Shown here in pieces: positions 4,089 to 38,067 of a stretch of DNA of 47,610 nt. Both the position numbers and the translations under genes were made by a program. The DNA lies in the IMG/VR virus record IMGVR_UViG_3300025898_000013, positions 1 through 47,610 of that record, one strand, 5' to 3'. The DNA is from a virus. The notes below the pieces were generated by a model, which ran no database searches, had not been told where the DNA came from, and saw only the letters and a program-made list of their open reading frames with translations. The first letter of the stretch is position 1. Each line of letters starts with the position of its first letter.

Positions 4089-5177
4089 ATGCCGTCATAC
4101 AGCCGAGCAACTTTGCCGGAAGAGTTCTACGACAAGACCAGCGACATGCTCCTGGTCCAACCCGAGCCGCAGTACCTGTACGCGATGCTCTATCTCCAGT
4201 CGCTCAAGGCGAGCTTGGAGATCCCGGCAGAACTCGGCCTTCCCTTCCGTCCGATCGGCGGGGTAGGCGCGAACTACACGCAGGCCGAGAAGGATCGCCT
4301 GATGCTGTCGAATCCGATGTTCAGCGACCTGATCGCTGCGAACGTCGACTTCAACGCGGCACCTGGCAACACCATCCGCATCAACCGTCCGCAGTTCGCG
4401 AACACGACCTACACGCTGGCTTCCCGCCAAATCGGCACGGGCGCAAGCATCTCGACGGTCGCTACCGCGGTGGCTTCGCAGCAGACCAACCTGACGTTGT
4501 TCCGCTTCGGTGGTCCGTACGACCAGACCAACTCCCGCGTCGCTCCGCTCGCCATCGAGGCGTTCGACGCGAACATGGGCGTGCACAAGGCGGCGCAAAT
4601 CAATGGCACCACGCTCAAGCGTGACTGCCATCGGTTCATCGACGCGGTGAACGTGGTCCTGCTGGATAACGCCAGCACCGTGGTCTACCCAGAAGGCATG
4701 ACCGCGGACAACGACGCGACTGCCGTCGGAACATTCCCGTTCACGCTCGAGCAGCTCAATCGCACCGAGCAGCTGATGGACGATGCGAACCTGCCGACGT
4801 TCGCCGACGGCTTCCGCGTACTCGTGCTCGCGCCGACTCAGCTGAAGCAGCTGAAGGACGACCGCCAGTACAAGGACGCTTCGGTGTTCTTCCCGGAATA
4901 CAACATCCTGTTCCCGCAATACGTGGGCAGCATCGGCAAATTCCACATCTTCACGAACACCACGCTGACCTCGACGAACAACTCGAGCTCGGTCGCGATC
5001 AAGTACGGCCACGCCATTGCCCCGGGCGCTTTGCTCGCCGGCATGGGCCGCCCTCTCCACGTCGCGCCGAGCACGGACGACAACTACGGCGAGACCGCGA
5101 AGGTCATCTGGATCGGCGATCTGGCCTTCGGCCTGGCGGACAACACGTTCTGCTACTCGGTTCGCAGCTCCGCGTAA
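4089..5177 (+). CDS. Major capsid protein
   Basis: The product has 362 residues. It starts with a good ribosome site (AAGGA, 8-nt spacing). The N-terminus is an acidic helical arm, followed by a beta-rich body with NTIRINRPQF and a long spine-type helix near residues 215-260 (LNRTEQLMDDANLPT, then RVLVLAPTQLKQLKDD). The late region has an FHIFTNTTLT strand and a C-terminal IGDLAFGLADN segment. Length, fold pattern and position after scaffold and before connector genes fit an HK97-fold coat protein. A palindrome starts 4 bp after its stop codon. Confidence 0.85.
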   Translation: MPSYSRATLPEEFYDKTSDMLLVQPEPQYLYAMLYLQSLKASLEIPAELGLPFRPIGGVGANYTQAEKDRLMLSNPMFSDLIAANVDFNAAPGNTIRINRPQFANTTYTLASRQIGTGASISTVATAVASQQTNLTLFRFGGPYDQTNSRVAPLAIEAFDANMGVHKAAQINGTTLKRDCHRFIDAVNVVLLDNASTVVYPEGMTADNDATAVGTFPFTLEQLNRTEQLMDDANLPTFADGFRVLVLAPTQLKQLKDDRQYKDASVFFPEYNILFPQYVGSIGKFHIFTNTTLTSTNNSSSVAIKYGHAIAPGALLAGMGRPLHVAPSTDDNYGETAKVIWIGDLAFGLADNTFCYSVRSSA

Positions 5178-8861: not shown

Positions 8862-10424
8862 ATGACTAATTTCGTCGGCTACCCGAGCAGCTACCGCGCG
8901 CCGTTCACTGCCATGCAGTTGCTCTTCGGCCAAGGGCCGAGCAACGCCCCGGCTGGGCCGCGCTCTGCGATGTACATGGGTCCCAAGACCGCCGCGGGCA
9001 CCGCGAACGTCAATCAGGCTTACACGATCACCAGCGAAGCCGACGCTATCACGCTGTTCGGAGTCGGCTCACCGGTACACCGCGCGCTACGCAGACACCT
9101 GCTCGCGAGTACGCTCGGCACGCTCATCGGTATTTGCTATGCCCCGAGCTCGGGCGGCAGTCCGGTGGCTGCGGCCGGCACAATCACCATCACATTCACC
9201 TCCGGATCGAACCCGACCGCGACCGGCCAGGTAACGACCTACGTCGCCGGCGAAGTCATCACCACCGGCTTCAACACCGCTGATACGGCGACCACGATCG
9301 CCGCAAACATCGTCCTAGGCATCAACGCGAAGGTCTGGCTGCCGGTCACCGCGACCAGCTCAGTCGGCGTTGTGACCATCACGGCCAAGATCGCTGGCGC
9401 ATCGCAGGGCGATGGCACGGTGGGCGTGATTCGTCTGCGTACCATTGCCGACGCTGGCAAGAACGTCATCTCCACTGCCTCTGGCGCAGCACTGGGTCTG
9501 GGCACGGGCACTGTCGGAGTCGACGGGACCACCACCGAGCTGGTCAACATGACGGGCGCGCTCTCGACGCTCACGAATACTCGCTACTACTACAACGGCT
9601 TCACGATGTGGTCGGCGGCGGCCCTTGCCGTCATCGCAACGCACGTCAGCGCCAAGAGCCAGGCGAACCCCGGGCTTCGCTGCCGCGCTTTCACCGCGTA
9701 CACCGGTACCGGCTCGGCCGTCTCGGCGCTCGCCATCGCGGTCAACTTCGAGCGTCAACACATCGTCCACCAGACGAATAGCGAATGGGACACGGCCGAC
9801 CTAGTCGGCAATGCCATCGCGATCCATCAGAGCCAGGAAGCAGGGACGGGCGACTTTGTCCCAGACAACTACCGCGGCAAGGATTGGATGTGCCCGGCTG
9901 CTTACTCGAATGCGGACTGGCCTACATCGACGCAAATCAATCAAGCCGTCACCGACGGTGTGATCGAAGTTGCGTCCGATCAATACGGCTCCTTCATGGT
10001 GATGTCCGTCACTACGCGCTCGCGCGATTCGGGCGGAACGATTTCGGACTTCCGAGCTACCGAAACGCATCGGATTAGCTTCCTCGACGCTGTTGGCGAT
10101 CGTTGGCTGATTCGCGATGCCGTGCAATATGGCGTCGGTTTCAAGCTGACTCCGGATCAGTTGATGCCGGACGGGTCGATCAACTTCAACCAGAAAGTCC
10201 CGCCCTTCACGCTGACGCCGTCGCTCTACAAGCCGTTCGCGGCCGCGCAGATCCAGGAGGCCGCGGACAACGGCGAGATCCAGGGCGCGTCGACGTGGCT
10301 CAACTCGCTCATCTGCTCGATTGACCCGAACAACATCAGTCGACTCGTCGTCACTGCCAGCGGCAGGACTATCGATATCCGACATCAGACCGGGATCCAG
10401 CTGTCCGAGACAACACCAGGCTGA
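8862..10424 (+). CDS. Tail sheath protein
   Basis: The product has 520 residues, the usual size of Mu gpL-type sheaths. It opens with the typical SYRAPFTAMQLLFGQGPS strand and has an early SEADAITLFGVGSPVHRAL segment that occurs in sheath proteins. A variable beta-sandwich insert spans about residues 100-230. The C-terminal core contains DFRATETHRISFLDAVGDRW and a final I-D-I-R-H-Q-T-G strand. The protein polymerises around the tube and contracts on infection. Next to the tube gene, this establishes a contractile tail. Confidence 0.85.
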   Translation: MTNFVGYPSSYRAPFTAMQLLFGQGPSNAPAGPRSAMYMGPKTAAGTANVNQAYTITSEADAITLFGVGSPVHRALRRHLLASTLGTLIGICYAPSSGGSPVAAAGTITITFTSGSNPTATGQVTTYVAGEVITTGFNTADTATTIAANIVLGINAKVWLPVTATSSVGVVTITAKIAGASQGDGTVGVIRLRTIADAGKNVISTASGAALGLGTGTVGVDGTTTELVNMTGALSTLTNTRYYYNGFTMWSAAALAVIATHVSAKSQANPGLRCRAFTAYTGTGSAVSALAIAVNFERQHIVHQTNSEWDTADLVGNAIAIHQSQEAGTGDFVPDNYRGKDWMCPAAYSNADWPTSTQINQAVTDGVIEVASDQYGSFMVMSVTTRSRDSGGTISDFRATETHRISFLDAVGDRWLIRDAVQYGVGFKLTPDQLMPDGSINFNQKVPPFTLTPSLYKPFAAAQIQEAADNGEIQGASTWLNSLICSIDPNNISRLVVTASGRTIDIRHQTGIQLSETTPG

Positions 10425-12274: not shown

Positions 12275-14368
12275 ATGGCCAACCTCCAATACGACATCAC
12301 GGTAGTAGGGGCGAATCAGATCCGCTCCGTCATCCGCGGCGTTGAGGCGGAGATTCTTGCCAGCAACAAGAGGATGACGGCCGGCATTCGCGGCACGTCG
12401 GGCGCTGGCGCTGGGCGGCCCAAGCTTGGTACAGGGAACGCTGGTAGCGGAGCAGCTGAGGCCAAGGCGCTCTCTCGGGTGCGCATCACCGAGGAAGAGA
12501 AGGTTGCGCGGGCTAGAGAGCGGCTACACGCGCGCTTCGTCGCTTTCGAAGGAACCGAGATCGAGCGCATCACGCGCCAGCGGCTAGCAGCGCTCGATAA
12601 GGAGCGAGCTGCGCGCACGAGGCTTGCTGAGTCAATGGCGAAGGGCGTTGGCACTGCGGTCCACAACACGGCGCGCACGGCAATGATGGGCGCCACTGTG
12701 ATAGGCGGGGCACTCATTGCCTCTGCGCTACACGATCAGATCGGTATTCAGGCGGGCGCGAGCCGTGTCGCCAACCAGGGCATGCGCCCTGACCTGAAAA
12801 ATCAGATCGCGAAAGAGTCCCAGAACCAACGCGGATTCACTGGCGAAGAATCGATCAACGCGCTGGATCAATTCGTCCAGAAAAGCTCCGACGTAGAGGG
12901 GGCGCTTTCGCAGTGGAAGATGCTTGGCGTACTCGCTAACGCGACGAGCACCAGCTTCGAGGATATGGGCAACGCGGGCGGCCGCGTGTGGCGATTGCTC
13001 TCCGAGAGCGTTAAGGATCCACTCGAACGCGCTAAGCAATTCAAAGACGTGATGACGACCATTGCCGTTCAAGGCAATATGGAAACGGTAGAGGCCCGCG
13101 ACCTGGCTCCTGTGCTCGGCAAGGTTACCTCTGCAACGCGCCGATACGGGGGCGACCCGATTCAGAGCCTGAAAGAACTTCTGGCCCTGGGCCAGCTCTC
13201 TGTCAGTAAGGGCGGCGCCACTGATGCCGCTGAGGAGACGACTTCGCTCGGTCGCTTCACTGACGACATGATCAAAGACGCCAGCGGAAAGAAGGGGAAG
13301 AAGAACAAGGGCTTCAACCCGTTCACCGATGACACGCAGTCCGCGCTAAAGAGCCCGGTTGCGATGGCGCTTGATATCATGGATAGAACGCACGGAGATC
13401 TTACTAAGATCTCCGGATATGCTGGCGTCCGTGGCCAGCGGGTGGTCTCTGGCATTCAGTCGACCTACATGGGCGCATACCGCGAGGCTGAGAAAATCAA
13501 GAAGGGATCCGGAGAAGCCGCCGGGCACGCGGCGGTTATGGCCAGCGTCAAACCACTGATCAACGCGACCAAAGACATCAACGCCGCTGATGACCTTCGA
13601 AACGCAGACCCGGATAAGCAATTCATCGAGGCGACCAAGCAATTCAACCGCGCGATCGGCGAGCAATTACTGCCTGCCGTCACGAAACTGATCCCGAAGT
13701 TCGTCGAACTCGTGCCGGCGGCGACCTACCTCACCGGAGAGCTGGTCAAGTTCGTCAACGCGCTGGCGGACAATCCGATCGAGGGGATCGGCGTTTTGAT
13801 TCTGGGCAAGATCACAGCCGACATTGCGGCCGCTGGCATTGGCAAGGGGCTCTCCTTTCTCCTGACCGGCATCATCAAGAGCGCGATACCTGGCGCCACC
13901 GGAGGGCTTGTGGGCCCAGCGGCAGGGCTGGCTGGCGCTGGCGTTGGACTAGCCGCGCGCGGCATCACAGGCGCCGCCACCGGTGTGACGAGTGCACTGG
14001 GTGTCGCTGGCGCCGCCGGTGGCGTTGCGCTGGGCGCCGCCGCGGGTCTCGCTGCTGCCGGCGTCGGTGCAGCTGCGTACGAAGGGAAGCAGCTCTACAA
14101 CGTGACCCAGGGCTTCACCGATTGGGGCACCGATGTGGCCAAGGCCGGCACGCCCGAAGATTACGACGCGATGATGAAGAAGGCCGGTCTCAGCGGCGGC
14201 GGGCAGGGTGGTGCCGAGGCCAATGCGGCGACGACTGCAGCCGCGGCTGCCCAGACTGACGCGGCCAAGGAAATGAAGAGCGCGGCCGCTGATCTCCGCG
14301 TTGCGTCTGCCAACATCCGCACTGCAGACCCGAACCGCACCAAGCCAATCGTAGCCCGCGCGCCGTGA
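12275..14368 (+). CDS. Tape measure protein
   Basis: The product has 697 residues. The N-terminal 130 residues are charged and helical. A hydrophobic Ala/Gly segment at about 133-155 (TAMMGATVIGGALIASAL) is followed by a TP901-type region (FTGEESINALDQFV through GQLSVSKGG). A second long Ala/Gly-rich hydrophobic stretch lies near 510-610 and an Ala-rich helical tail follows. These features, the position after the chaperone and the large size are typical of tape measure proteins, which fill the tube lumen and set tail length. At about 700 residues the tail would be of moderate length. Confidence 0.8.
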   Translation: MANLQYDITVVGANQIRSVIRGVEAEILASNKRMTAGIRGTSGAGAGRPKLGTGNAGSGAAEAKALSRVRITEEEKVARARERLHARFVAFEGTEIERITRQRLAALDKERAARTRLAESMAKGVGTAVHNTARTAMMGATVIGGALIASALHDQIGIQAGASRVANQGMRPDLKNQIAKESQNQRGFTGEESINALDQFVQKSSDVEGALSQWKMLGVLANATSTSFEDMGNAGGRVWRLLSESVKDPLERAKQFKDVMTTIAVQGNMETVEARDLAPVLGKVTSATRRYGGDPIQSLKELLALGQLSVSKGGATDAAEETTSLGRFTDDMIKDASGKKGKKNKGFNPFTDDTQSALKSPVAMALDIMDRTHGDLTKISGYAGVRGQRVVSGIQSTYMGAYREAEKIKKGSGEAAGHAAVMASVKPLINATKDINAADDLRNADPDKQFIEATKQFNRAIGEQLLPAVTKLIPKFVELVPAATYLTGELVKFVNALADNPIEGIGVLILGKITADIAAAGIGKGLSFLLTGIIKSAIPGATGGLVGPAAGLAGAGVGLAARGITGAATGVTSALGVAGAAGGVALGAAAGLAAAGVGAAAYEGKQLYNVTQGFTDWGTDVAKAGTPEDYDAMMKKAGLSGGGQGGAEANAATTAAAAAQTDAAKEMKSAAADLRVASANIRTADPNRTKPIVARAP

Positions 14369-18987: not shown

Positions 18988-20505
18988 ATGACGCTTCAAG
19001 CAGGACAACTTTTCATCCCGGGCAGTGCCGAGGAAATTCGCGACGATCTGCTTGCGGACTTTCGGCTTGAGGCCGTGAAGTACTCGGTGATCGCGCCCGC
19101 GGTTACGCCGGGCACTGACAACTGGTTCTTCTTCACGGCGGTAGCGAACGCCGGGCTTCTCCAATACTCGAACATCGCTACCATTCGCCCAGCGATCACA
19201 CCACTCAATGCGACAGGCGAAGATCTAGAAGAATACCGAATCGCGCTTGGGTTGCCCGTCGTCCAAGCATCGCCTGCAGCGGGGAAGCTCACCGTCACCG
19301 TTTCCGGCGTGGGCTCGGTCACGTTCTCGGATGGGCTGCAGTTCCTTTACCCGAGCGGCCTCCGCGGCAAAGTCAGCGGGACGCAGCTCAATGTGTTCGA
19401 CGAGCAGGACGTTAACGTCGTGGCCATCGACACGGGCGGCGGAACAAATCTCGAGAGCGGCATGGCGGTTAGGTGGGTAAATCCACCATTCAACGTCGCA
19501 ACGCAGGCGCGCGTTTCAATCAACGGCCCGCTCACCGGCGGATTCGACAGCGAGACCGAAGATCGAAAACGCGACCGCGTCCTGAACCGCTTTCAAAACA
19601 CGCCAGGAGGCGGCAACTGGGGGCAGCTGCGCGAAATCGCGTTCAACACGCTACCGAGCGTCAAGGACGCTTACGTCTACCCAGCGCTGGGAGGGTCGTC
19701 GTCGGACAAGCTCACCATACTCAAGGGGTTCGATCGCGCGCGCAACGACTACCATCGATCCTTCCAGCTCGGGGCCATTGCGCTGGTGCGGGACGCTATC
19801 CATTCCCAGCTCTCGACTGGCGACGAACATGTAGTCGGCACGGGAGACGAGCTAGCTTGCGACGTCACCCTGCTGCTTGAGCTCCCGAGTTCGGCGCTCG
19901 CTGGTGGCAATGGGCTCGGCTGGCTCGACCAGTACCCCTGGCCGCCGAATGGATCCGGCACGCCGGTGACCGTCTCGGCTACGAGCGGAGCGCTGAACGT
20001 CACGGTACACGCAACGACGGTTGTGTCGCCGCTTCCTGGGCAAACGCACATCATGTGGTGGTCGCGCTATGACATGAAAATGCGGACGTCGTTGGTCACG
20101 ACAGTCGACCCATCGAGCACCAGCGGGAGCTGGATCCTCACTGTCGATGCGCCGTTTGTCGACAGTCTTGGGAATGTCGTAGCGGTCGGCGACTTTATTT
20201 CGCCTGCGGCGACGAACGCCGAGAAGTATGGCGGAACGTTTATCGACCTGATGGAGTCGCTCGGCGCCGGTGAGAACACGTTCGACGCACAGCGTCTTCC
20301 GCGCTCGGCGCGCCACCCGTTCGTTGGTGACGGGGCGGACCTCAGTATTACCAACAAGTTCCTGACTGATTTTCTGGCGCAACATGGCGAGATCACGGAT
20401 GCCGCTCTCGGCTATTTACCGACGCCGTCACCAACTACTCCTTCCACGGTCGCCGCGAATCCGCGCGTTCTCGTTCCTCACCACTTCGGGATCCAGGTGT
20501 TCTGA
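18988..20505 (+). CDS. Baseplate J protein, Mu gp47-like
   Basis: The product has 505 residues, with the baseplate-J order. An N-terminal helical part is followed by a strand domain GKLTVTVSGVGSVTFSDGLQ. Then come the core GGFDSETEDRKRDRVLNRFQ (the conserved G-x-D-x-E-xx-xx-R-x-R pattern) and N-x-x-Q-L-R-E-I-A. An insert of about 120 residues (about 295-420) makes it longer than Mu gp47 (about 360). It is the main wedge protein linking inner and outer baseplate. It is coupled to the next gene by TGATG. Confidence 0.8.
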   Translation: MTLQAGQLFIPGSAEEIRDDLLADFRLEAVKYSVIAPAVTPGTDNWFFFTAVANAGLLQYSNIATIRPAITPLNATGEDLEEYRIALGLPVVQASPAAGKLTVTVSGVGSVTFSDGLQFLYPSGLRGKVSGTQLNVFDEQDVNVVAIDTGGGTNLESGMAVRWVNPPFNVATQARVSINGPLTGGFDSETEDRKRDRVLNRFQNTPGGGNWGQLREIAFNTLPSVKDAYVYPALGGSSSDKLTILKGFDRARNDYHRSFQLGAIALVRDAIHSQLSTGDEHVVGTGDELACDVTLLLELPSSALAGGNGLGWLDQYPWPPNGSGTPVTVSATSGALNVTVHATTVVSPLPGQTHIMWWSRYDMKMRTSLVTTVDPSSTSGSWILTVDAPFVDSLGNVVAVGDFISPAATNAEKYGGTFIDLMESLGAGENTFDAQRLPRSARHPFVGDGADLSITNKFLTDFLAQHGEITDAALGYLPTPSPTTPSTVAANPRVLVPHHFGIQVF

Positions 20506-27211: not shown

Positions 27212-29029
27212 ATGGCGGTCACGCAGCCCGGCGACGTTACGGTCATCGCACCGATCGCCGTCCAAAATGACGCTAACTACGCGATGCGCGCGGAGTCGAT
27301 CCTTGGTGGGTTCGTCGCCCTTGCGTCCGGAAGTGGTCCGCCGACTGCGGCCAAGATCCCGCTGATCGTCCGGCGCGTCGGAACGCTCGCGTACACGCCT
27401 ACGGACGGCAAGTGGTGGCAGCTCGTCGGCGGAACGGCCGACGCTAACTGGGTCGAGCGGTCGATGGTCGCCGCGGTGCTCAGCGTCTTCGGTCGAGTGG
27501 GCGCGGTAGTGGCGGCTGCCGGCGACTACACGAGTTCGCAGATCACGAATGCCTCCGCGGTAACCGGGGCAACGGTGACAGCGGCGCTCAACACGCTGAA
27601 CTCGGCCCTGGCAACGGCTGGCCCGGTGTCATCGGTGTTCGGGCGCACGGGTGCCGTCGTGGCGGTGCTCAACGACTACACGAGCTCGCTGATCCAAAAC
27701 CTGGCCACGGTCACTGGCGGCGGATCGACGGTCACTTCGGCGCTGAACGCGCTGCAGGCTCAGATTTCCGCCGCTGTTACCGGCGTATCGAGCTGGAACT
27801 CGCGGACCGGAGCGGTGGTGCCCGCAAGCGGCGACTATGCAGCAAGCCAGGTCGCCAACGACTCGACGGTCACTGGCACGGGCGTCGCCGCGGCGTTGAA
27901 CACGCTCAAGACATCGATCACCGCGCTCGTCACTGGTGTATCTAGTGTCTACGGACGAGCGGGCGCTGTGGTGGCAACGACTGGTGATTATACCAGTACG
28001 CAGATCACGAACAGCTCTGGAGTGACTGGGACGGGAGTGACTGGAGCGCTGAATACGCTAAACTCTGCGATCACAAGTGCGACCCTCACGGCTGATGAGA
28101 CAAGCGCTCACATTGCCAGCCAGGTTATCAGTGTTAAGAATGGCGGAATCACCGACACCAAGGTTGCGACCACGGCAGCGATTGCAGGGACCAAAATCAG
28201 TCCCGATTTCGGGGCTCAGAACGTAGTCACAACGGGCTATATTCAAGCCCCACAGATCGGTGACGGGACGGGCAACATTGAGGTTCACGCGACCAGTTTT
28301 CAAACGACTTGCATCGGTAATTTCATCGGTCTCGGGCAGAGTTTTGCTGGGCTAAATAACGGAGATTCAACGGCCTCAGGCAGTTTGCCCTCTCTAACAA
28401 TCAGCGCGTCAAGCGGTAGCGGGAGCGCTACGCACACCGCGGGTCTCCTGATCTTGTCTGGCGGATCAACCACCAGTCCAAGCGGAACAGGGGGCGATCT
28501 CTTCTTGTCTGGGGGGAGTGGCCCGTCCAACACGAAAAACGGCAACATCGCACTCAATCTGTTCCCTGTGAGCTGGCAATCAATGGAACACGGCGTATAC
28601 ATCGCCGAGGCAAGTGCGACCCCAACAGGTAATCCGACTAGCGGATTCTTTCTCTACGTAGATCCTGTCGATCATGAGCTAAAGGTGCGCGGCCCGTCCG
28701 GGACCGCCGTCCTCGCCCCGAGCTCGCCCCTGTGGGTTCCGACCTCCGTCAAGACCTCCGCGTACAATGCCCAGCCCGGTGAGTTCGTCAAATACAGCGT
28801 CGCGGGCGGCGGTTTTACGATCACGCTCCCTGACCCGACGACGTTTCTGGCGGGAGCCTCGGTCAAAATCAAGAATACCACTAGCAGTGCTAACTCGCTC
28901 ACCGTGCAGTCGGCCGGAGGGGCCACCATCGACGGCTTCTCATCCTTCATCCAGAACCACGCCAACATGTGCGCCGAGTACACGTCGGACGGCGCGAACT
29001 GGTGGGCCACGACCGCGTACAGAGAGTGA
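27212..29029 (+). CDS. Tail fibre protein with four FGR-GAVV-GDY repeats
   Basis: The product has 605 residues. Residues 1-85 form an N-terminal domain shared with the next gene (TQPGDVTVIAP, GGFVALASGSGPP, RRVGTLAYTP). Residues about 90-290 hold four repeats of S-V-F/Y-G-R-x-G-A-V-V-x-x-x-G-D-Y-T-S-S-Q-I followed by a T-A-A-L-N-T-L-N-S helix, a well-known fibre shaft repeat. The distal part contains TAGLLILSGGSTTSPSGTGG repeats and a terminal lectin-like domain ending in EYTSDGANWWATTAYRE. Confidence 0.8.
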   Translation: MAVTQPGDVTVIAPIAVQNDANYAMRAESILGGFVALASGSGPPTAAKIPLIVRRVGTLAYTPTDGKWWQLVGGTADANWVERSMVAAVLSVFGRVGAVVAAAGDYTSSQITNASAVTGATVTAALNTLNSALATAGPVSSVFGRTGAVVAVLNDYTSSLIQNLATVTGGGSTVTSALNALQAQISAAVTGVSSWNSRTGAVVPASGDYAASQVANDSTVTGTGVAAALNTLKTSITALVTGVSSVYGRAGAVVATTGDYTSTQITNSSGVTGTGVTGALNTLNSAITSATLTADETSAHIASQVISVKNGGITDTKVATTAAIAGTKISPDFGAQNVVTTGYIQAPQIGDGTGNIEVHATSFQTTCIGNFIGLGQSFAGLNNGDSTASGSLPSLTISASSGSGSATHTAGLLILSGGSTTSPSGTGGDLFLSGGSGPSNTKNGNIALNLFPVSWQSMEHGVYIAEASATPTGNPTSGFFLYVDPVDHELKVRGPSGTAVLAPSSPLWVPTSVKTSAYNAQPGEFVKYSVAGGGFTITLPDPTTFLAGASVKIKNTTSSANSLTVQSAGGATIDGFSSFIQNHANMCAEYTSDGANWWATTAYRE

Positions 29030-29042
29030 CACCGCTGTCTAA

Positions 29043-31505
29043 ATGATCACCCAACCAGGCGATGTCACAATCGTCGCGCCCCTCTCCATTCCGAGCGACG
29101 CGAACTTCGTCGTCCGCTCCGAGTCGGTGCAGGGAGGCTTCGTTGCCCTGCCATCGGGGAGCGGTCCACCGACGACGACGAACCTGCCCGCGGTGATGCG
29201 GCGCGTGGGCACGCTCGCCTTCACTCCAGCCGACAGCAAGCTCTGGCAGCTGCTGGGTGGCACCGCGGACATCAATTGGGCCCCGTGCTCGCTCGGGCTC
29301 GGGCCAGACTTCGGGGCGCTGGATTTGAAGACGACGGGATCGCTGTCTCTCGGGACGAATCCGGCCGGCGTAGGCTCCTTGAGGCTGCCATATTCGACGG
29401 GGCTGATCACGTCGCGTAACTCCGGCAATTCTGCGGATTTAGTGGTCTATGAGACGGGCGGGACCGGCGGAAATACTGACGAACAAGTATTCGGATCTCT
29501 CAGCAACAGTTTCACTACTATTCGCAGCAGCAGCGGGGGGATTCAGTTTATTGGTGCGGCGGCCATTTTGGGCAGCATCAGCACAGCCAATGGTTTTCTG
29601 CTCCGCGTTAACGCTCAATTCAGTGTCAACGTCGGTAGCCCGACGCTGACTCACCAAGCTAGCGCTTTCGTGGGTGGTACTGGCGGGACATTAACTATCG
29701 CAGCTCAGACGATGAGCGGCGCCGGTTCCACTGGTGGTATTCTTGCTCTGAATGGCGGAAGCGCTACGGGCGCAAGTGGTACCCGCGTGGGCGGCGACGT
29801 CGTTGTCACGCCGGGGACAGGCGCAACAGCTAACGGAAAGTTCGTCGCTGGTTCGTTCCTCTCTCTGGGAGGCTTCTCCAGTGACTTTTTGTCTCTTGGT
29901 TCCAGCCCCGCCTCCGCCGGGGTTTTGCGTCTCGCAAGCAGTGCGGCAGTGAATGGGAGATCATTCTCCAACACGATAGACTATTCTCTTCTAAACTGGG
30001 GCGCTGCCGCGAACGCTCTATTTGTAGGAGACGCAAACAATACGGCTACTCTTATTTATGGGGGCTCTATCAGCCTTTATCCATCAAGCGTTAACACGTT
30101 TGACGTTTCACCAGGTTTGGTCGAGATCGTTTCATCAAGTGCAGCTGAATTCCGTTTTCGGGTGCAGTGCCTTAGTCCGCTTATTACACACGGAGTCGCC
30201 ACCGGCACAGGTGTGTGCCAAACACTCACGGTTTTGGCGCAGGGCTCCTCCGGGAGTGGCGCCACGGGCGGGAAGCTAGCCCTACAAGGAGGAGTTGCTT
30301 CGGGTGCTTCGGGCACAGGTGGGGACGTTGAAATCACTCCAGGAACCGGAGTAACAGCCAACGGGCTCCTCTCCGTCAAGATTGGGGCTACTCAAGTTCT
30401 TTCACTTGGGAAAGTAAGCGGAGATTTCCTCGCTTTAGGTGCAGCCCCCGCAAGTGCTGGTACTATCCGCACTAGCCATGGCTGGACTCTTAAGACGAGG
30501 AATTCAACAAATTCGATAAACTTCTCAATCTTAGATGTAGGGAGCGCTCCCGACTCACTGCTCATCGGTGATGCGCTACTATCTACGACTTCAATTGCCG
30601 GCGGGGGCATTTACCTCAATTCAAATACTGTCAATCTTGGTCTTGCTGGGGCATCTTCGCTCCTGTTTAACCAGGGCTCAGTGGCCACTATCGGGCAATT
30701 TCCCGGTGGGTCAACGACCAGTTCCGCTTTTACAGTCGCTGCTCAGGACAACGTAAACGTAGCCGGTGTGGCCGGCGACATGCTTGTTCGGGCGGGGAAC
30801 GCAACGGCAGGCACGGGCACGTCTTCGGGTGGGTCCATAACCATAGCGGGCGGCAGTGCTTCCGGGCCTAGTGGGACACGTACCGGGGGTAACGTCCTCA
30901 TCAAGGCTGGGAATGGCGCCAGTGCAGGTGGCGGGATTTACTTATATGGATTGGGGGGTAGCCAATCCATTGCACAGTTTAACGTGTCAACTGCCCAATG
31001 CGCATTTACGCTGATCCCGCCGGCTTCAGGCGTTGGGATCATGCAGTTCAGCGGGGACTCTGGCACCTCCTGCACGTTGCAGATCAACGCGCCAACCGTG
31101 TCGACGAACGGAATGCCGTTCGTTCTCGCTGGGCAGTCTGCCTCGGCAGATAACGGCGGCTTACTGGCTCTAGCTAGCGGGAATGGTGGCTCTGCCAAAA
31201 AGCAGGGGGCCGTTCAGTTGTCATTGGGCGGCTACCGCGACGGCGCTGCTTTTGGGACGAAGATCATACTGGCTGAACTGTCCAACTTAGGAACGGTCGC
31301 CTCTCCCGCGTCGGTGCTAGCGCTCTGTTACAACGCCGCAGTCTCCACGACACAAGTCCCCACGGGAGACAAAGTAATTTTCATTGGGGAGGCGGGCACT
31401 GTTCCGAGCTCGAACCCAGTAGGCGGCGGCATCATCTACGTCCAGTCGGGCGCTTTGAAATACAGAGGCACAAGCGGGACGGTCACTACTCTCGCTGCGG
31501 CCTGA
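29043..31505 (+). CDS. Large tail fibre protein, paralogous N-terminus
   Basis: The product has 820 residues. The first 85 residues closely match the previous fibre protein, so both probably dock on the same baseplate site. The shaft has repeated modules of about 170 residues: GGDVxxTPGTGxTANG, LSLGxxSxDFLxLGxxPASA, then a stretch with LLxxGxAxxxLxxGD. Further TGG-rich beta turns and a final domain ending in YVQSGALKYRGTSG, common at fibre C-termini, follow. By eye the base composition from about 29.4 to 31.2 kb is less GC-rich than the flanks, suggesting a different history for the shaft. Confidence 0.75.
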   Translation: MITQPGDVTIVAPLSIPSDANFVVRSESVQGGFVALPSGSGPPTTTNLPAVMRRVGTLAFTPADSKLWQLLGGTADINWAPCSLGLGPDFGALDLKTTGSLSLGTNPAGVGSLRLPYSTGLITSRNSGNSADLVVYETGGTGGNTDEQVFGSLSNSFTTIRSSSGGIQFIGAAAILGSISTANGFLLRVNAQFSVNVGSPTLTHQASAFVGGTGGTLTIAAQTMSGAGSTGGILALNGGSATGASGTRVGGDVVVTPGTGATANGKFVAGSFLSLGGFSSDFLSLGSSPASAGVLRLASSAAVNGRSFSNTIDYSLLNWGAAANALFVGDANNTATLIYGGSISLYPSSVNTFDVSPGLVEIVSSSAAEFRFRVQCLSPLITHGVATGTGVCQTLTVLAQGSSGSGATGGKLALQGGVASGASGTGGDVEITPGTGVTANGLLSVKIGATQVLSLGKVSGDFLALGAAPASAGTIRTSHGWTLKTRNSTNSINFSILDVGSAPDSLLIGDALLSTTSIAGGGIYLNSNTVNLGLAGASSLLFNQGSVATIGQFPGGSTTSSAFTVAAQDNVNVAGVAGDMLVRAGNATAGTGTSSGGSITIAGGSASGPSGTRTGGNVLIKAGNGASAGGGIYLYGLGGSQSIAQFNVSTAQCAFTLIPPASGVGIMQFSGDSGTSCTLQINAPTVSTNGMPFVLAGQSASADNGGLLALASGNGGSAKKQGAVQLSLGGYRDGAAFGTKIILAELSNLGTVASPASVLALCYNAAVSTTQVPTGDKVIFIGEAGTVPSSNPVGGGIIYVQSGALKYRGTSGTVTTLAAA

Positions 31506-32295: not shown

Positions 32296-32745
32296 ATGTC
32301 CAAATACACCGCTGCCGGGTTCATCGCGGCCGCTGCCACCAAGACGCCGCTCATCCTCTCCGGTACCGCTGCTCAGCGCGGCTGGATCTCGTACTTCCGC
32401 CTGTCGGCGACCGGTACGCCGGCCACCGACGTGAACGCGGAAGTCCAGGTTCGTCGTTCGACGGCCGCTGGTACCTCGACCGCTTACACGCCCGTTGCGA
32501 TCGACCTCGCAGATCCGGCCGCGGTCATCATCGCTGGCGTCAACGCGACGATCGAGCCCACCTACTCGGCGGGTTTCATCGACGACGTGTTCTTCAACCC
32601 GCGCGCGGTGGTGCCTTGGTCCGCATACGACCAGGCGAGCGAACTCGTGATCCCGGCAACGGCTAACGCCGGCATCGGGTTCCAGTGCGCTGCGGCTGGC
32701 GGTATCGGCACGAACGTGAACGCCGCGGTTCAGTTCCACCAGTGA
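32296..32745 (+). CDS. Putative abundant structural (decoration/fibre-type) protein, free-standing
   Basis: The product has 149 residues, beta-rich and low in charge, with a Lys/Thr/Ala N-terminus (KYTAAGFIAAAATKTPLILS), an AEVQVRRSTAAGTSTAYTPV strand pair and a C-terminal VNAAVQFHQ. It has a strong AGGAG ribosome site at 9-nt spacing, its own structured leader and a terminator-like stem with nine T downstream. It is therefore likely transcribed or stabilised as a single, highly expressed unit. Composition resembles the 130- and 140-residue beta proteins near the capsid gene, so a virion-surface role is plausible. Confidence 0.55.
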   Translation: MSKYTAAGFIAAAATKTPLILSGTAAQRGWISYFRLSATGTPATDVNAEVQVRRSTAAGTSTAYTPVAIDLADPAAVIIAGVNATIEPTYSAGFIDDVFFNPRAVVPWSAYDQASELVIPATANAGIGFQCAAAGGIGTNVNAAVQFHQ

Positions 32746-32778
32746 CCTGAGACGGGGGTCCACAGACCGCTGTCTGCG

Positions 32779-32842
32779 CCAGACGAATCGGGTCTTCGGC
32801 AATGTGCTGCGGGCCCGAGGCGTTTTGGACAGCTTTTTTTTT
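32779..32842 (+). terminator. Rho-independent terminator candidate with T9 tract
   Basis: A two-part stem (CCAGACG with CGTTTTGG, and TCGGGTC with GGCCCGA, including wobble pairs and one bulge) is followed after ACAGC by nine consecutive T (32834-32842). A smaller perfect hairpin, CAGAC/GTCTG, lies just upstream (32763-32776). This is the longest T run in the window and closes the structural region. Confidence 0.55.
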
Positions 32843-32856
32843 GAGGGGCGACTGAT

Positions 32857-33327
32857 ATGCGACGAGATCAGCTAGCGCTGGAGAGCGGGGCACTACAGCG
32901 CGTCATCCAGTGGATTTTGGACATCCCTTTCGAGCGCTGGCCACAACAGCATCGCCTCGCTGACGGGCTCGTGCGACCAGCAATGGTCACCGACCTCGGC
33001 TGGGAATCGTTCGGGGATGTGACGGCGGAGCTTGTACAGAACGCGACACCGATCTCGATGAAGCAACTTCGAGAGCGCAATCGATTGCTTTCCGTTGTGA
33101 TGCCTGGCGCGGTCATTGACCCGCATACAGACGAGCTCGGCGGCGATTGGTGCACACGGATCCATGTCCCGCTGCTCTCTAACCCAGACGCGATGTTCAT
33201 CTCGGGTGACGTCGTTCACCGTTTGGAAGTCGGCTTCGCCTACGAAATAAACACACGAGAGAGACACGCCGTGTGGAACGCAGGCGCGACGCCGCGCGTT
33301 CACCTGATGTTCGATCTTCACGAGTAA
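32857..33327 (+). CDS. 2-oxoglutarate/Fe(II)-dependent hydroxylase, aspartyl/asparaginyl hydroxylase-like
   Basis: The product has 156 residues; GAGGGG lies 8 bp before ATG 32857. The catalytic pattern of the jelly-roll dioxygenases is complete. H90-T-D92 are the first two iron ligands, and a strand with R-I-H-V-P-L follows. A loop G-x-A-Y-E-I-N then leads to R-H137-A-V-W-N (third ligand), and R147-V-H-L-M-F-D supplies the 2-oxoglutarate-binding Arg. The HAVxN...RxHLxFD ending is typical of the aspartyl/asparaginyl beta-hydroxylase family. The substrate is unknown: a virion protein or a host protein are both possible. A palindrome starts 5 bp after the stop. Confidence 0.75.
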   Translation: MRRDQLALESGALQRVIQWILDIPFERWPQQHRLADGLVRPAMVTDLGWESFGDVTAELVQNATPISMKQLRERNRLLSVVMPGAVIDPHTDELGGDWCTRIHVPLLSNPDAMFISGDVVHRLEVGFAYEINTRERHAVWNAGATPRVHLMFDLHE

Positions 33328-33331
33328 TTCG

Positions 33332-33347
33332 GCGGTCATGTGACCGC
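33332..33347 (+). promoter_or_regulatory. Dispersed palindrome copy 2 (GCGGTCATGTGACCGC)
   Basis: A perfect 16-bp palindrome, GCGGTCA-TG-TGACCGC, extended by G/C on both sides. It lies between the hydroxylase stop and the AGAGGG ribosome site of the next small gene. Compared with copies at 5181 and 47125 both arms carry a compensating T-to-C/A-to-G change at the second position, which preserves symmetry. Confidence 0.6.
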
Positions 33348-33363
33348 CAAGAGGGCAGGCGCG

Positions 33364-33486
33364 ATGGATGTCATTCTCATCGGTTGGTCGATCATGGGGA
33401 TTGTTGTGGGCGCGTTCGGGCTGTTCTTCGCAGAGCGCGAACGAAGCGGGCGCTATTGGCCGAGCGGTAAGCGCCGAAAATTCTGA
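33364..33486 (+). CDS. 40-residue single-pass membrane protein
   Basis: ATG 33364 follows AGAGGG. Residues 3-23 (VILIGWSIMGIVVGAFGLFF) form one membrane helix, followed by a short basic cytoplasmic-type tail (ERERSGRYWPSGKRRKF). It lies 16 bp after the palindrome and 18 bp before a zinc-ribbon gene. No known family; tiny membrane proteins recur in this genome. Confidence 0.55.
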   Translation: MDVILIGWSIMGIVVGAFGLFFAERERSGRYWPSGKRRKF

Positions 33487-33504
33487 GCGAATAACGAGGG
33501 AACG

Positions 33505-33789
33505 ATGCAACGAGCTCTTGGATACATTCAGCACATCGGACCTGAAAGCACGGTCCAATACGAGACCTTCACGTGCGGTCACTGCAACAGCATCGTCCGC
33601 ATGCAGAAGGACGTCTCGTTGCAGTCGCTCGATCTTGCGATCCGGCGCGGCAAAGAGACGCGCGACATTCGGCGCTGCAACGGCTGCGACCGTCTGACCT
33701 GCCCGAAGTGCCAGAAGGCACCGAGCTGCACGCCGTTCGAACGTGTACTTGAGGCAATCGAGCGAAGCGCACGACTCCGGGCTCTGTGA
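33505..33789 (+). CDS. Small zinc-ribbon protein
   Basis: The product has 94 residues. Zinc-binding pairs are C24-G-H-C27, C58-x-x-C61 and C66-P-K-C69, with C75 in a PSCTPFERVLEAIE tail. The layout FTCGHCNSIVRMQ, long helix, then RRCNGCDRLTCPKCQ is the pattern of a small conserved phage protein with an unknown role. It is 6 bp from the SGNH hydrolase gene and may belong to the same transcript. Confidence 0.65.
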   Translation: MQRALGYIQHIGPESTVQYETFTCGHCNSIVRMQKDVSLQSLDLAIRRGKETRDIRRCNGCDRLTCPKCQKAPSCTPFERVLEAIERSARLRAL

Positions 33790-33795
33790 TTCGCG

Positions 33796-34500
33796 ATGCC
33801 GATTGAGTTCATGACATTGCCGCCCCAACCGTTGGCGCGGCGCAACGCCAGAGTGTCGCATCTGTACGCGATGGCCGTTGGTGATTCACTCACCAACGGC
33901 AACGGCGATACGCAAGCGGTAAACGATGGCGGCTGGCGCAAATCGCTCGGCGCCTGGATGCTGACGGCGCCACTCGGTTGCACAATAGATCTGCTGGGGC
34001 CGAACGATAACGGCTTCCCCAATGGCAAGCACGACGGCGTTTCGGGCGTTACTTGCCAGTATCACATCGACAATTTGCCTGGGTTGCTGACCGGATCTGC
34101 GTCAGCGACGCAGTTCATTTTGCTGATGATCGGCACGAATGACTGTCTATTTCAGGCCAACGTAATCAGCACAGCGCTCTCTCAACAGGCCGCGGTGTTG
34201 GCGACTATTCGCACGACGAAACCCGGTATCCCGGTTCTGATGTCGACGCTGACAGACTCGTCTGACGCTGGGTTTCACGCGAACATTGTTGGCGTAAACG
34301 CAGGCATGCCAGCGATGGTCGCGGCTGAAAACGCGCTCGGCGGCAAGGTCACATTGTGGGACGGCTTCTCAGCTGTCGGCAGCTACGCGACGAACCCGGG
34401 CGCTTACTACGACGGTCTGCACTTCACCGCGGGCGGCGGCTACTCGCTCTATTACGCGGCGATCAAAAACCAAGTCTACAACCAGATCACGTTGTTCTGA
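33796..34500 (+). CDS. SGNH/GDSL-type hydrolase
   Basis: The product has 234 residues. Block I is V-G-D30-S31-L-T-N-G (nucleophile Ser31), block III is M-I-G-T-N115-D, and block V is Y-D206-G-L-H209-F-T with catalytic Asp and His. A Gly of block II is likely in the GPNDNGFPNGKHDG region. Such enzymes remove acetyl or acyl groups. In phages they are often tail-borne deacetylases that alter capsular or surface polysaccharide. There is no signal peptide. The location just before a giant repeat protein and near fibres supports a virion-associated role, which is an inference. Confidence 0.75.
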   Translation: MPIEFMTLPPQPLARRNARVSHLYAMAVGDSLTNGNGDTQAVNDGGWRKSLGAWMLTAPLGCTIDLLGPNDNGFPNGKHDGVSGVTCQYHIDNLPGLLTGSASATQFILLMIGTNDCLFQANVISTALSQQAAVLATIRTTKPGIPVLMSTLTDSSDAGFHANIVGVNAGMPAMVAAENALGGKVTLWDGFSAVGSYATNPGAYYDGLHFTAGGGYSLYYAAIKNQVYNQITLF

Positions 34501-34506
34501 GCATAA

Positions 34507-37500
34507 ATGGCAATCACGCTAATCGGCAGTAATTGGGGAGAGCGCCCAACGTTCGGCGGAGCTCCATTTACCGTCCCGAGCGCGCTCAGCAACTCTGCCG
34601 CGATCCAAGCAGGCGATCTGATCCTGCTTGCGATGAATACGGACGATGACACGCCGGTCAGCGTCTCTGGCGCTTTCACCAAGCTCTATCAAAACGGAAA
34701 CAACGCAGACGCATTTTTCGCGCGCGTTGCAACTGGTGCCGAGACCGCCGGTTGGGACTTTACCGTCACTGGTACAGCGGTAAACGAAGCCTGGGCATTT
34801 GTCGTCTATCGCGGTGCGACGATCGAAGGAACCCCGGGCGGAACGGGCGCATTCGATTATCCGTGGGCATCTGCCTCGCAGACCTCTGTTGCGGCAGAGC
34901 TCGCGGTGTTGCTCCGCACCAATCATAGCAATATCCAAGATGCGACGATGTCTGCCCCTGCGGGCATGACAGAGCAGGTTTTTTCGACTGTCACGAATCG
35001 CGATCCGCGCGTTCAGCAGATCGATATCTGGGATCAGACTATCTCGCCGGGAGCCAGCGTTAGCTACTCCGGAACGATGGCATTCAACGCCGGTTACTAC
35101 GGCACCACGCTGGTGTTGTTGGTGCCGTCTGGTGGTGGTGGCGGCGGGCCGAGCACTGACCAGGTTCCGCTTGATGCAGCAGCTAGCACCAAAGCGCCTG
35201 CTGTCTCCGCGCGCCGATTGGTAGAGGTCGTGGCGCCGGTTGGCGCGCTACTAGCTGCCGGAGCGCTGACTTCGATCGCATGGGGCGCCTCACCCGCGCT
35301 GCCCGCGCGCGCGCAGCAGCTAAATCCGCCCACCATTCAGGCGATTGCCCCAATCGGCACGGGCACGTTCCGCCTGCCCGCGTCACCGCAGAACTATTCC
35401 GTTCCGCAAGGACCAATCACACCGATCGTCGCTCAGCGTGTACTGCCAAGTGAGCCGATCGGCACTCGGATCACTACGGCGGCGCTCAGCTCGATTGCAT
35501 GGGCGAATCCCACGCCATTGCCCGCCCGAGCGCTGGGCACCAATCGCCCTGTCGAATCGGCAGTGGCGCCAGTGGGAACTGGTACGTTCCGACTCTCGGC
35601 GCTTCCCAATTCGGGATTTGCGGCTCAAGATCCACGGGCTCCAACAACCGCCCGCTCAGCTATTGAGCCGACGCAACCGCTTGGGCAGCTCGCGGTAACG
35701 CTGTCGTCAATCGGTTGGCTGCAGATCGATACAGCTGCGCCACGCTCAAGCACCCGGCTGACGGTCGTGTACATCGCAGGAGATGAGTCTCCTGGGCTGT
35801 CGCTTCCGTGGTTCGATTCGTATCTTGAGACGAGACCGAGCAGCTTTGCAAGGCAACCGCTTGATGTCTCCAACCCGTTCGGGGCGGCGGCGCAGGCGTC
35901 CGCATTGTCAACGCTTGGGTGGCAGTCCTACGAGCAGCTCCGCTCACGAGCGACCGTCTCCGCCTCGCTGCAGCCGTCGTCGCCAGTAGGAGCTCTTCTT
36001 CCGGGCGCGCTCACTAGCCTGGGCTGGCTCGGCGTGGAGCCGCGTACGGCAGCGCTCCCCGCGCCGCGCGCGCCTCAGGCGTCCGCCCCTACCGGGCCCC
36101 TTACACCGTTTCTCTCCGTCAGCACCGGGTTCTTCGGCTCGAGCTCCGCTTCGCCCGTCCTGCCCGCGCCACGCGCGCAAGAGGCACAACAGCCGACTGG
36201 CCCGCTGCGACCGTTCGTCTCGGCAAGCTCCGGTTTCCAGACCGTAGACGCCAAAGCGCCGCCAGCGCTCGCCCCGCGAGTTCAGGAAGCGTCGCAACCG
36301 ACAGGCCCGCTCGCTCCGTTCGTCTCGCGTTCCAGCGGTTGGGACTCGCCGGTCACCGCGCGCCAGTCCACCTTCAGCGCTCGAGCGGAGGCCTCGGCGC
36401 CCGTCGGCAGCCTCATTCAATCGCTCACCAGCCTCGGCTGGATGGGCGCAGACACGCGGGCACCGGTGCTGCCAGCGCCGCGCGCCCAGGACGCTCAGCA
36501 ACCAAGCGGCCCTCTCCGACCATTCCTATCGCCGAGCACCGGCTGGTTCTCGTCGGAGCTGATCCTCGATCAGCCGCTCGTCTACCGTCAGGTTTCGGAG
36601 AGCTCCCCCAACGGCACGCTGCTCACGCCGCAGCCGTTTGGGTGGAACTCGGCCATCGACCAGGCGCGCCCGGCCGCGGTAGTTTCCCGTCGAGTCGAAC
36701 CCGCTGCTCCGATCGGGACAGCGTTTGCCATTGCTCTGCCGTCAAACGGTTGGCTCGCAACTGACAACCCGCGCACCCCGCTCACGCTGGGCAAGTCGAC
36801 ACCGCAAGATCCGGTCGGCAACCTGCTCGTTCTGCCGCCGCTGCCGAATCTGACGTGGCTCACGACCGAGAACCCACGGACGCCGTACAGCGTCACTCGC
36901 GCCGTAATCGTCGATCCTGTCGGCTCCAAGTTCTTCGTCCCGCCAGCGCTCGGGCCCTATTGGTTCATTGACCAGCCCCGTACACCAGCGGTCCGGACTT
37001 CGGTCGCTGACACCGTCGCGCCGGTCGGGACGCTGTTCGCGACCCTGACTTCGGTCGGCTGGCTATCACCCTTTGAAGCGCCGCGCTCGCCGCTCGTCGC
37101 CCAACGGGTGCAGCCAGTCGATCTGCTGCGCGGGCTGCAATTTGGTGGCGCGCCGTGGTCTACGGTCGACGTCCAGCCGGGTCGCGCTGCCGTCGCTCGA
37201 GCTCCTGAGGTTGCGCAACCGACAGGCCCACTCGCTCCGTTCGTCTCGACGTCCATCGGGTGGCAATCCGCTAGCCTGCAACAGCAACCGTCCGCCCTGG
37301 CGCGCCGCTTCGACGCCAGCGCTCCGATTGGAGCTCTGATCCAGAGCGGTGCCCTCACGAGTCTCGGGTGGCAGCTCACGGACCAGCCGCGGACGAGGAT
37401 TTTCGTTGGCGCACCGGTCGACACGACCTTGCCCATCGGCGCTCTGCTGACCCAAGGGCTATCCAGTATCGGTTGGTATTGGTCGGACACGGCAGCTCGA

Positions 37501-38067
37501 CCGACTATCGTCAGCCAGAGGCAGCAGGAGAGCGTCTCACCCGTCAGCGCCCTCACGCCATTCGTGTCGCTATCGAGCGGCTGGCAGACGACAGAACAGC
37601 AACGCACGCGCCAGTCAACGGGCTCGACGCTGCAGCCAGTTCAGGCGCACAGCGCGCTTGCGTTCGGTGGAGCACCTTGGGCAAGCGTCGACCCAGCGCA
37701 GCCGCGCGCATTGGCTGCTCGTGGCCAAGAGTCCGCCGTTCCAATCGGGGTTGCATTCTCGCAGTCGTTGGCAAATCTCGGCTGGCTCACGACGGAGACG
37801 ATCGCGCCGCGCCTCGTCTTCCCGCGCGTCAACCCGATCGAACCGGTCGGTCTCTTCATGCCGCCGCCTGTCCTACCTGGGATGGGTTGGAACTACGTCA
37901 TGGAGCTGCCGCCGCGTTGGAGCTTCGTCGCTCGTCCGGTTCCATCTGAGCCGGTCGGGTCGTCCTTCGCGCTCGGGTTCTCGGTCGCCCCAATACGCCG
38001 CTGCTCACCAGTGTTCGATCTGACCGGAGTCGGTCGCCTGTCTCCAATCTTCGACGAAACCCGATGA
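34507..38067 (+). CDS. Giant repeat protein with about 27 degenerate P-x-G...GW units
   Basis: The product has 1186 residues. Residues 1-205 form a beta-sandwich-like N-terminal domain (MAITLIGSNWGERPTFGG through TLVLLVPS), and a six-Gly hinge (209-214) follows. The remaining 970 residues are about 27 imperfect repeats of 32-38 residues with the pattern [A/L]-x-x-R-x-x-x-[A/S]-x-P-[V/I/T]-G-x-L, then a short hydrophobic strand [L/F]-[S/T]-S-x-G-[W/F]-x-x-x-[D/E]-x-x-x-P-R. The best units include PVGALLPGALTSLGWLGVEP, PIGALIQSGALTSLGWQLTD and PTGPLAPFVSRSSGWDSP. The repeats lack Cys. A long fibrous or solenoid virion protein is likely. Its function is unknown. Confidence 0.7.
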   Translation: MAITLIGSNWGERPTFGGAPFTVPSALSNSAAIQAGDLILLAMNTDDDTPVSVSGAFTKLYQNGNNADAFFARVATGAETAGWDFTVTGTAVNEAWAFVVYRGATIEGTPGGTGAFDYPWASASQTSVAAELAVLLRTNHSNIQDATMSAPAGMTEQVFSTVTNRDPRVQQIDIWDQTISPGASVSYSGTMAFNAGYYGTTLVLLVPSGGGGGGPSTDQVPLDAAASTKAPAVSARRLVEVVAPVGALLAAGALTSIAWGASPALPARAQQLNPPTIQAIAPIGTGTFRLPASPQNYSVPQGPITPIVAQRVLPSEPIGTRITTAALSSIAWANPTPLPARALGTNRPVESAVAPVGTGTFRLSALPNSGFAAQDPRAPTTARSAIEPTQPLGQLAVTLSSIGWLQIDTAAPRSSTRLTVVYIAGDESPGLSLPWFDSYLETRPSSFARQPLDVSNPFGAAAQASALSTLGWQSYEQLRSRATVSASLQPSSPVGALLPGALTSLGWLGVEPRTAALPAPRAPQASAPTGPLTPFLSVSTGFFGSSSASPVLPAPRAQEAQQPTGPLRPFVSASSGFQTVDAKAPPALAPRVQEASQPTGPLAPFVSRSSGWDSPVTARQSTFSARAEASAPVGSLIQSLTSLGWMGADTRAPVLPAPRAQDAQQPSGPLRPFLSPSTGWFSSELILDQPLVYRQVSESSPNGTLLTPQPFGWNSAIDQARPAAVVSRRVEPAAPIGTAFAIALPSNGWLATDNPRTPLTLGKSTPQDPVGNLLVLPPLPNLTWLTTENPRTPYSVTRAVIVDPVGSKFFVPPALGPYWFIDQPRTPAVRTSVADTVAPVGTLFATLTSVGWLSPFEAPRSPLVAQRVQPVDLLRGLQFGGAPWSTVDVQPGRAAVARAPEVAQPTGPLAPFVSTSIGWQSASLQQQPSALARRFDASAPIGALIQSGALTSLGWQLTDQPRTRIFVGAPVDTTLPIGALLTQGLSSIGWYWSDTAARPTIVSQRQQESVSPVSALTPFVSLSSGWQTTEQQRTRQSTGSTLQPVQAHSALAFGGAPWASVDPAQPRALAARGQESAVPIGVAFSQSLANLGWLTTETIAPRLVFPRVNPIEPVGLFMPPPVLPGMGWNYVMELPPRWSFVARPVPSEPVGSSFALGFSVAPIRRCSPVFDLTGVGRLSPIFDETR

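Follow-up and report, generated by a model that had tools for sequence, protein, structure and literature searches.

A repeat-array protein at the end of a contractile-tailed phage's fibre region, a candidate modular fibre with a small partner gene

The repeat-array gene and its surroundings

The window, by which we mean the whole 47.6-kb stretch of DNA analysed here, is an IMG/VR virus record from a contractile-tailed phage (a myovirus record in IMG/VR). It encodes a major head protein (4089-5177), a sheath (8862-10424), a tape measure (12275-14368), a baseplate J protein (18988-20505) and hub proteins; beyond about 25 kb lie several fibre genes. At the end of this tail and fibre region, after the baseplate and fibre genes and with sheath, hub and baseplate J upstream, lies the longest open reading frame of the window (3.6 kb; 34507..38067, + strand). 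It encodes a protein of 1186 aa, P0001, which from its position is a probable tail fibre.

P0001 begins with an N-terminal head of ~215 residues (aa 1-215; 34507..35151, +) that has no database match and no recognised binding fold. Within its last residues a hinge of six glycines (aa 209-214; 35131..35148, +) can be read directly. The array that follows consists of 27 units with a mean length of 35 aa (aa 226-1167; 35182..38007, +) and the pattern R-x-x-x-E-x-x-x-P-[VIT]-G-x-L ... L-x-S-x-G-W, and the protein closes with a 29-residue C-terminal tail, FSVAPIRRCSPVFDLTGVGRLSPIFDETR (37978..38064, +). The end of the gene overlaps by 4 nt (ATGA) the start of a gene for a small protein of 111 aa, P0002 (38064..38399, +), which is probably all-beta, as in its low-confidence AlphaFold model, and which we propose to be an adaptor. 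Directly upstream, at a distance of 6 nt, is an SGNH/GDSL hydrolase gene (33796..34500, +; PF13472, E=2.9e-10). The initial annotation had described the largest gene of this DNA, a Gly hinge after the head, coupling to a small adaptor-like gene and a neighbouring SGNH hydrolase, and all four observations hold, the adaptor role being a proposal.

The autocorrelation of the array peaks at lag 35 (z=10.1 vs shuffles), followed by lags 68-70. Cutting it at each P-x-G anchor yields units of 31-38 aa in which the P (26/27), the G two residues later (24/27) and an aromatic W, F or Y (26/27) are near-invariant and R is frequent. With leave-one-out HMMs, 23 of the 27 units score above all 300 of their own shuffles; those at aa 264, 408, 683 and 1027 are weak. 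Thus the earlier description of about 27 P-x-G...G-W units stands, with a period of 35, while the stated unit length of 32-38 residues has to be widened and the closing P-R belongs to many units, not all.

Two relatives with different parts in common

Two metagenomic relatives were found. One of them, a 67-kb record (IMGVR_UViG_3300046791_000269; hereafter G005), encodes an 881-aa protein with the sole further P-x-G array that came to light; it was recovered with a degenerate pattern for P-x-G-P-L-x-P-F-x-S-x-S-x-G. The two arrays match at E=2.4e-80, with 58% identity over aa 643-909 of P0001 (267 residues). Several of the 17 units in G005 are one-to-one reciprocal matches to units of P0001, in the same order, so that units 15-17 of P0001 correspond to units 10-12 of G005. 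The likeness extends to neighbouring genes upstream. In contrast, the head in G005 is LamG-style (a weak PF13385 match, E=0.32), a GH16 enzyme (E=1.2e-18) replaces the SGNH hydrolase, and the C-terminal tail and small gene differ. Compared with the tail of P0001, 1383/5000 shuffles did as well as the G005 tail, and 2798/5000 did so in the comparison with the tail of P0006, the G001 protein described below. The small protein of G005, P0010, is not homologous to P0002; it matches phrog_1084 (function unknown) at 6e-13 and the LtfC-like family PF23926 at E=1.5e-4 (22.7 bits, below the cut-off of 27). The backbone differs as well, and tblastn with the head, sheath, tape and baseplate genes tested from the window found none of them in G005. 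Among isolated phages, neither the G005 array protein nor P0010 has a match.

The second relative shares the backbone. G001 (IMGVR_UViG_3300049929_000026; 137.6 kb) was found through its sheath, which is 97% identical to that of the window; the hub proteins are 91-97% and baseplate J 88% identical. At the place of P0001 the gene order is an SGNH hydrolase, a 715-aa array protein, P0006 (L005:4899-7046, - strand), and then P0007, a homologue of P0002 (29% identity, E 2e-10; 0/2000 shuffles as good). The head and array of P0006 are unrelated to those of P0001, the P-x-G array being replaced by 20-residue Gly/Ala/Thr repeats (a Gly/Ala/Thr/Leu period). Despite the different array, the C-terminal tail is common to both proteins, with 12/26 residues identical (blastp E=3e-4; 0/5000 shuffles as good). 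Searching IMG/VR with a P0002 and P0007 alignment returned G001 only, as did a pattern search for the C-tail motif. P0006 has no match among isolated phages.

The three loci thus present three combinations. The window has head A, array X, tail 1 and small gene 1; G001 has head B, array Y, tail 1 and small gene 1; and G005 has head C, array X, tail 2 and small gene 2. In all three, the array gene and the small gene overlap (ATGA, TGATG and GTGA, in the order window, G001, G005). The three genomes show that the C-terminal tail and the small gene change together, and that head and array are swapped separately. They also show an array of variable unit number, with 27 units here and 17 in G005. The place upstream of the array gene is held by the hydrolase in the window, by another SGNH hydrolase in G001 and by GH16 in G005, and this comparison of relatives shows the enzyme to be a further separately exchangeable part.

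Upstream of the hydrolase, three small genes (32296-33789) are common to the window and G005. They encode a protein of 149 aa (32296..32745, +; 87% identical in G005), an Asp/Asn beta-hydroxylase-like 2OG-dioxygenase (32857..33327, +; PF05118, E=1.2e-12; 74% identical) and a small CxxC protein (33505..33789, +; 62% identical). Because the block is shared with G005 although the backbone genes are not, it is a cassette that moves between phages. The dioxygenase, whose gene lies 1.2 kb upstream of P0001, could in principle modify the Pro-rich P-x-G array, giving a fibre hydroxylated in the manner of collagen, but we consider this very improbable. The enzyme occurs in both array-bearing phages (the window and G005), was not found in G001 or in 26 other records searched, and the array of G001 is Pro-poor. 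This co-occurrence may be linkage only, because the enzyme travels in the same DNA block.

Family, age and fold of the array

Neither Pfam, NCBIfam nor PHROGs contains a family that matches the P0001 array at E<=0.01 (the sole hit, below the cut-off, was PF14067 with E=0.25), and PDB chains gave no sequence match up to E=10. Nothing was returned from IMG/VR with peptides of P0001 or P0002, and isolated phages gave no match to the window DNA, P0001 or P0002. Host genomes searched with the sheath alignment and with the array alignment yielded no relative. The more distant phages MW202476 and L010 lack a P-x-G array and have Gly-rich fibre genes. The searches of Pfam, NCBIfam, PHROGs and PDB bear out the view that the array belongs to no named repeat family. 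It is a new repeat family that probably forms the rod in a modular appendage of the phage, and the kind of appendage is one already known.

Synonymous sites among the units are saturated everywhere. Averaged over all pairs, units share 25% of their residues, with a mean pS of 0.69; even the closest pair (63% aa identity) has a pS of 0.76 and a pN of 0.23, and residues that are identical between units use the same codon in only 33% of cases. Between P0001 and G005, units 15-17 and their orthologues share 77% identity at a pN of 0.17 and a pS of 0.65, and units 13-18 as a whole give pS 0.69 and pN 0.25; in other words, dN is well below dS. Synonymous saturation, together with low pN in orthologous units, indicates that the array is old, has been under selection at the protein level and is not the product of a recent DNA expansion, as had been proposed from the units of P0001.

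The fold is harder to read. A solenoid or long fibre had been suggested; what is borne out is that P0001 is a long repeat protein encoded among the tail-fibre genes of a myovirus. The AlphaFold model of four units (from an alignment of six rows, all taken from the repeats of P0001) has a pLDDT of 57, a pTM of 0.12 and no secondary structure, and it neither proves nor excludes an ordered fibre, for example a trimeric one. One alternative sees in the array a Pro/Ala/Ser-rich tether, extended and for the most part disordered, an entropic spacer that would hold a binding head on a rope. Arguing for this are the model's lack of secondary structure and the composition of the array (13% Pro, and 18% in that of G005, with 0.4% Lys and hardly any Cys). 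Counter to this, P, G, W and the hydrophobic strand are conserved position by position across units, and the identity and low pN of the orthologous units are more than a plain tether needs; moreover, the model of the units was built without a real alignment. We regard such a tether as possible but doubtful, and it would be compatible with either orientation of the protein.

Attachment of the fibre and parallels in other phages

On balance we lean towards reading P0001 as a long thin adsorption fibre that a contractile-tailed phage holds by the C-terminal peptide: a small beta adaptor would be the anchor, the array a spacer and the N-terminal head the distal end. The C-terminal peptide would dock onto P0002, perhaps through strand donation, and P0002 would in turn fasten the fibre to the phage tail or its baseplate. 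The array would be a spacer rod of adjustable length, and the head would point outward and bind a surface glycan, which the hydrolase encoded upstream may trim. From the three genomes compared, we infer the polarity, N-terminus out, because the window and G001 have a common backbone, C-tail and adaptor but different heads.

A known counterpart for such docking is found in DT57C, a T5-type phage, in which LtfC, a small beta protein, receives terminal strands from the fibre protein LtfA (PMC10713586). In both systems a fibre would be tied to the tail via a small beta protein and a terminal peptide. However, LtfA docks by its N-terminus (PMC10713586), whereas P0001 is proposed to dock by its C-terminus. 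The adaptor of G005 matches the LtfC-like family PF23926, if below the cut-off, whereas P0002 does not match it. The Gp77 fibre-tail adaptor family, PF23148, is likewise not matched by P0002; it has no match in G000 or G001 and was hit, below the cut-off, only by the small gene of locus L022. PDB searches with P0002, P0007 and the L022 small gene gave no meaningful match.

A second parallel comes from a different group of arrays. Phages also carry repeats with S-F-G-W-F-x-P-L-S-E-P-V-R, which were the starting point for a pattern scan of IMG/VR. The scan gave 43 loci, 38 with open reading frames of W-x-x-L-S-E-P-V-R type (L012-L054). Many of these W-type loci have tandem units of 36-37 aa with W-[FY]-x-x-L-S-E-P-V-R behind unrelated heads; we found no family name for them, and they have no match among isolated phages. 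Like P0001, they combine tandem units bearing Trp and P..R with exchanged heads and a small gene directly downstream, which in many cases encodes a beta-type protein of 93-104 aa. A C-terminal strand motif, [VI]-[SA]-[IV], is present in 19/21 W-type arrays with that small gene and in 2/15 without (Fisher p=4e-6), against 3% of shuffles, although the motif was picked after inspection and related loci were counted without correction for kinship. The co-occurrence is partly shared ancestry. It is nevertheless in keeping with a general plan in which a terminal strand pairs with a small beta partner.

Homology between the two kinds of array is another matter. By hmmsearch, P0001 units match W-type arrays no better than shuffles do; hhalign of 44 units against the W-type family gave P=0.0077 at a probability of 5%, and the permuted-column controls shown gave P of at least 0.48. 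Homology of P0002 to the W-type small genes was sought and not found, and the P0001 head compared with the heads of W-type proteins did not rise above shuffles.

The main rival to an outward-pointing N-terminus is the ordinary polarity, in which the N-terminal head sits on the baseplate, the C-tail forms the distal tip and P0002 is an assembly chaperone or tip adhesin. Genes for Tfa and T4 gp38, which act as fibre-assembly chaperone or tip adhesin, typically lie downstream of the fibre gene. The position of P0002 is typical of them, and a chaperone or tip protein would account just as well for the co-variation of C-tail and small gene. What makes this arrangement unlikely, in our assessment, is that the heads are wholly different in two phages of near-identical sheath and hub while the C-tail and small gene are kept, and that small genes adjoining comparable arrays match LtfC-like and Gp77 attachment models, albeit below cut-off. 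That P0001 is instead a head or neck decoration, or a secreted protein, is improbable: W-type array genes often have, a few hundred bases downstream, one conserved gene of ~235 aa whose product resembles a connector protein, but P0001 stands at the end of the tail and fibre region, overlaps its proposed adaptor gene and follows an enzyme typical of fibre modules.

If P0001 is indeed a C-terminally anchored fibre, a rule suggests itself for such phage appendages: the C-terminal plug keeps its small partner gene, and rod and head are swapped. One phage's rod does occur in a phage of another backbone, and the plug rule would predict which end of a fibre is attached. P0001, with a repeat family absent from the libraries searched, would in this way connect unnamed repeat proteins of uncultured phages to known fibre-adaptor systems.

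Elsewhere in the fibre region, two large fibre genes (27212-29029 and 29043-31505) have a common N-terminal block (TQPGDVT.IAP...GGFVAL.SGSGPPT...RRVGTLA) that recurs at the start of the G001 protein P0009 and resembles an attachment domain of the conventional N-terminal kind. The first of these genes also encodes repeats of the form S-V-F-G-R-T-G-A-V-V-A-x-x-G-D-Y-T.
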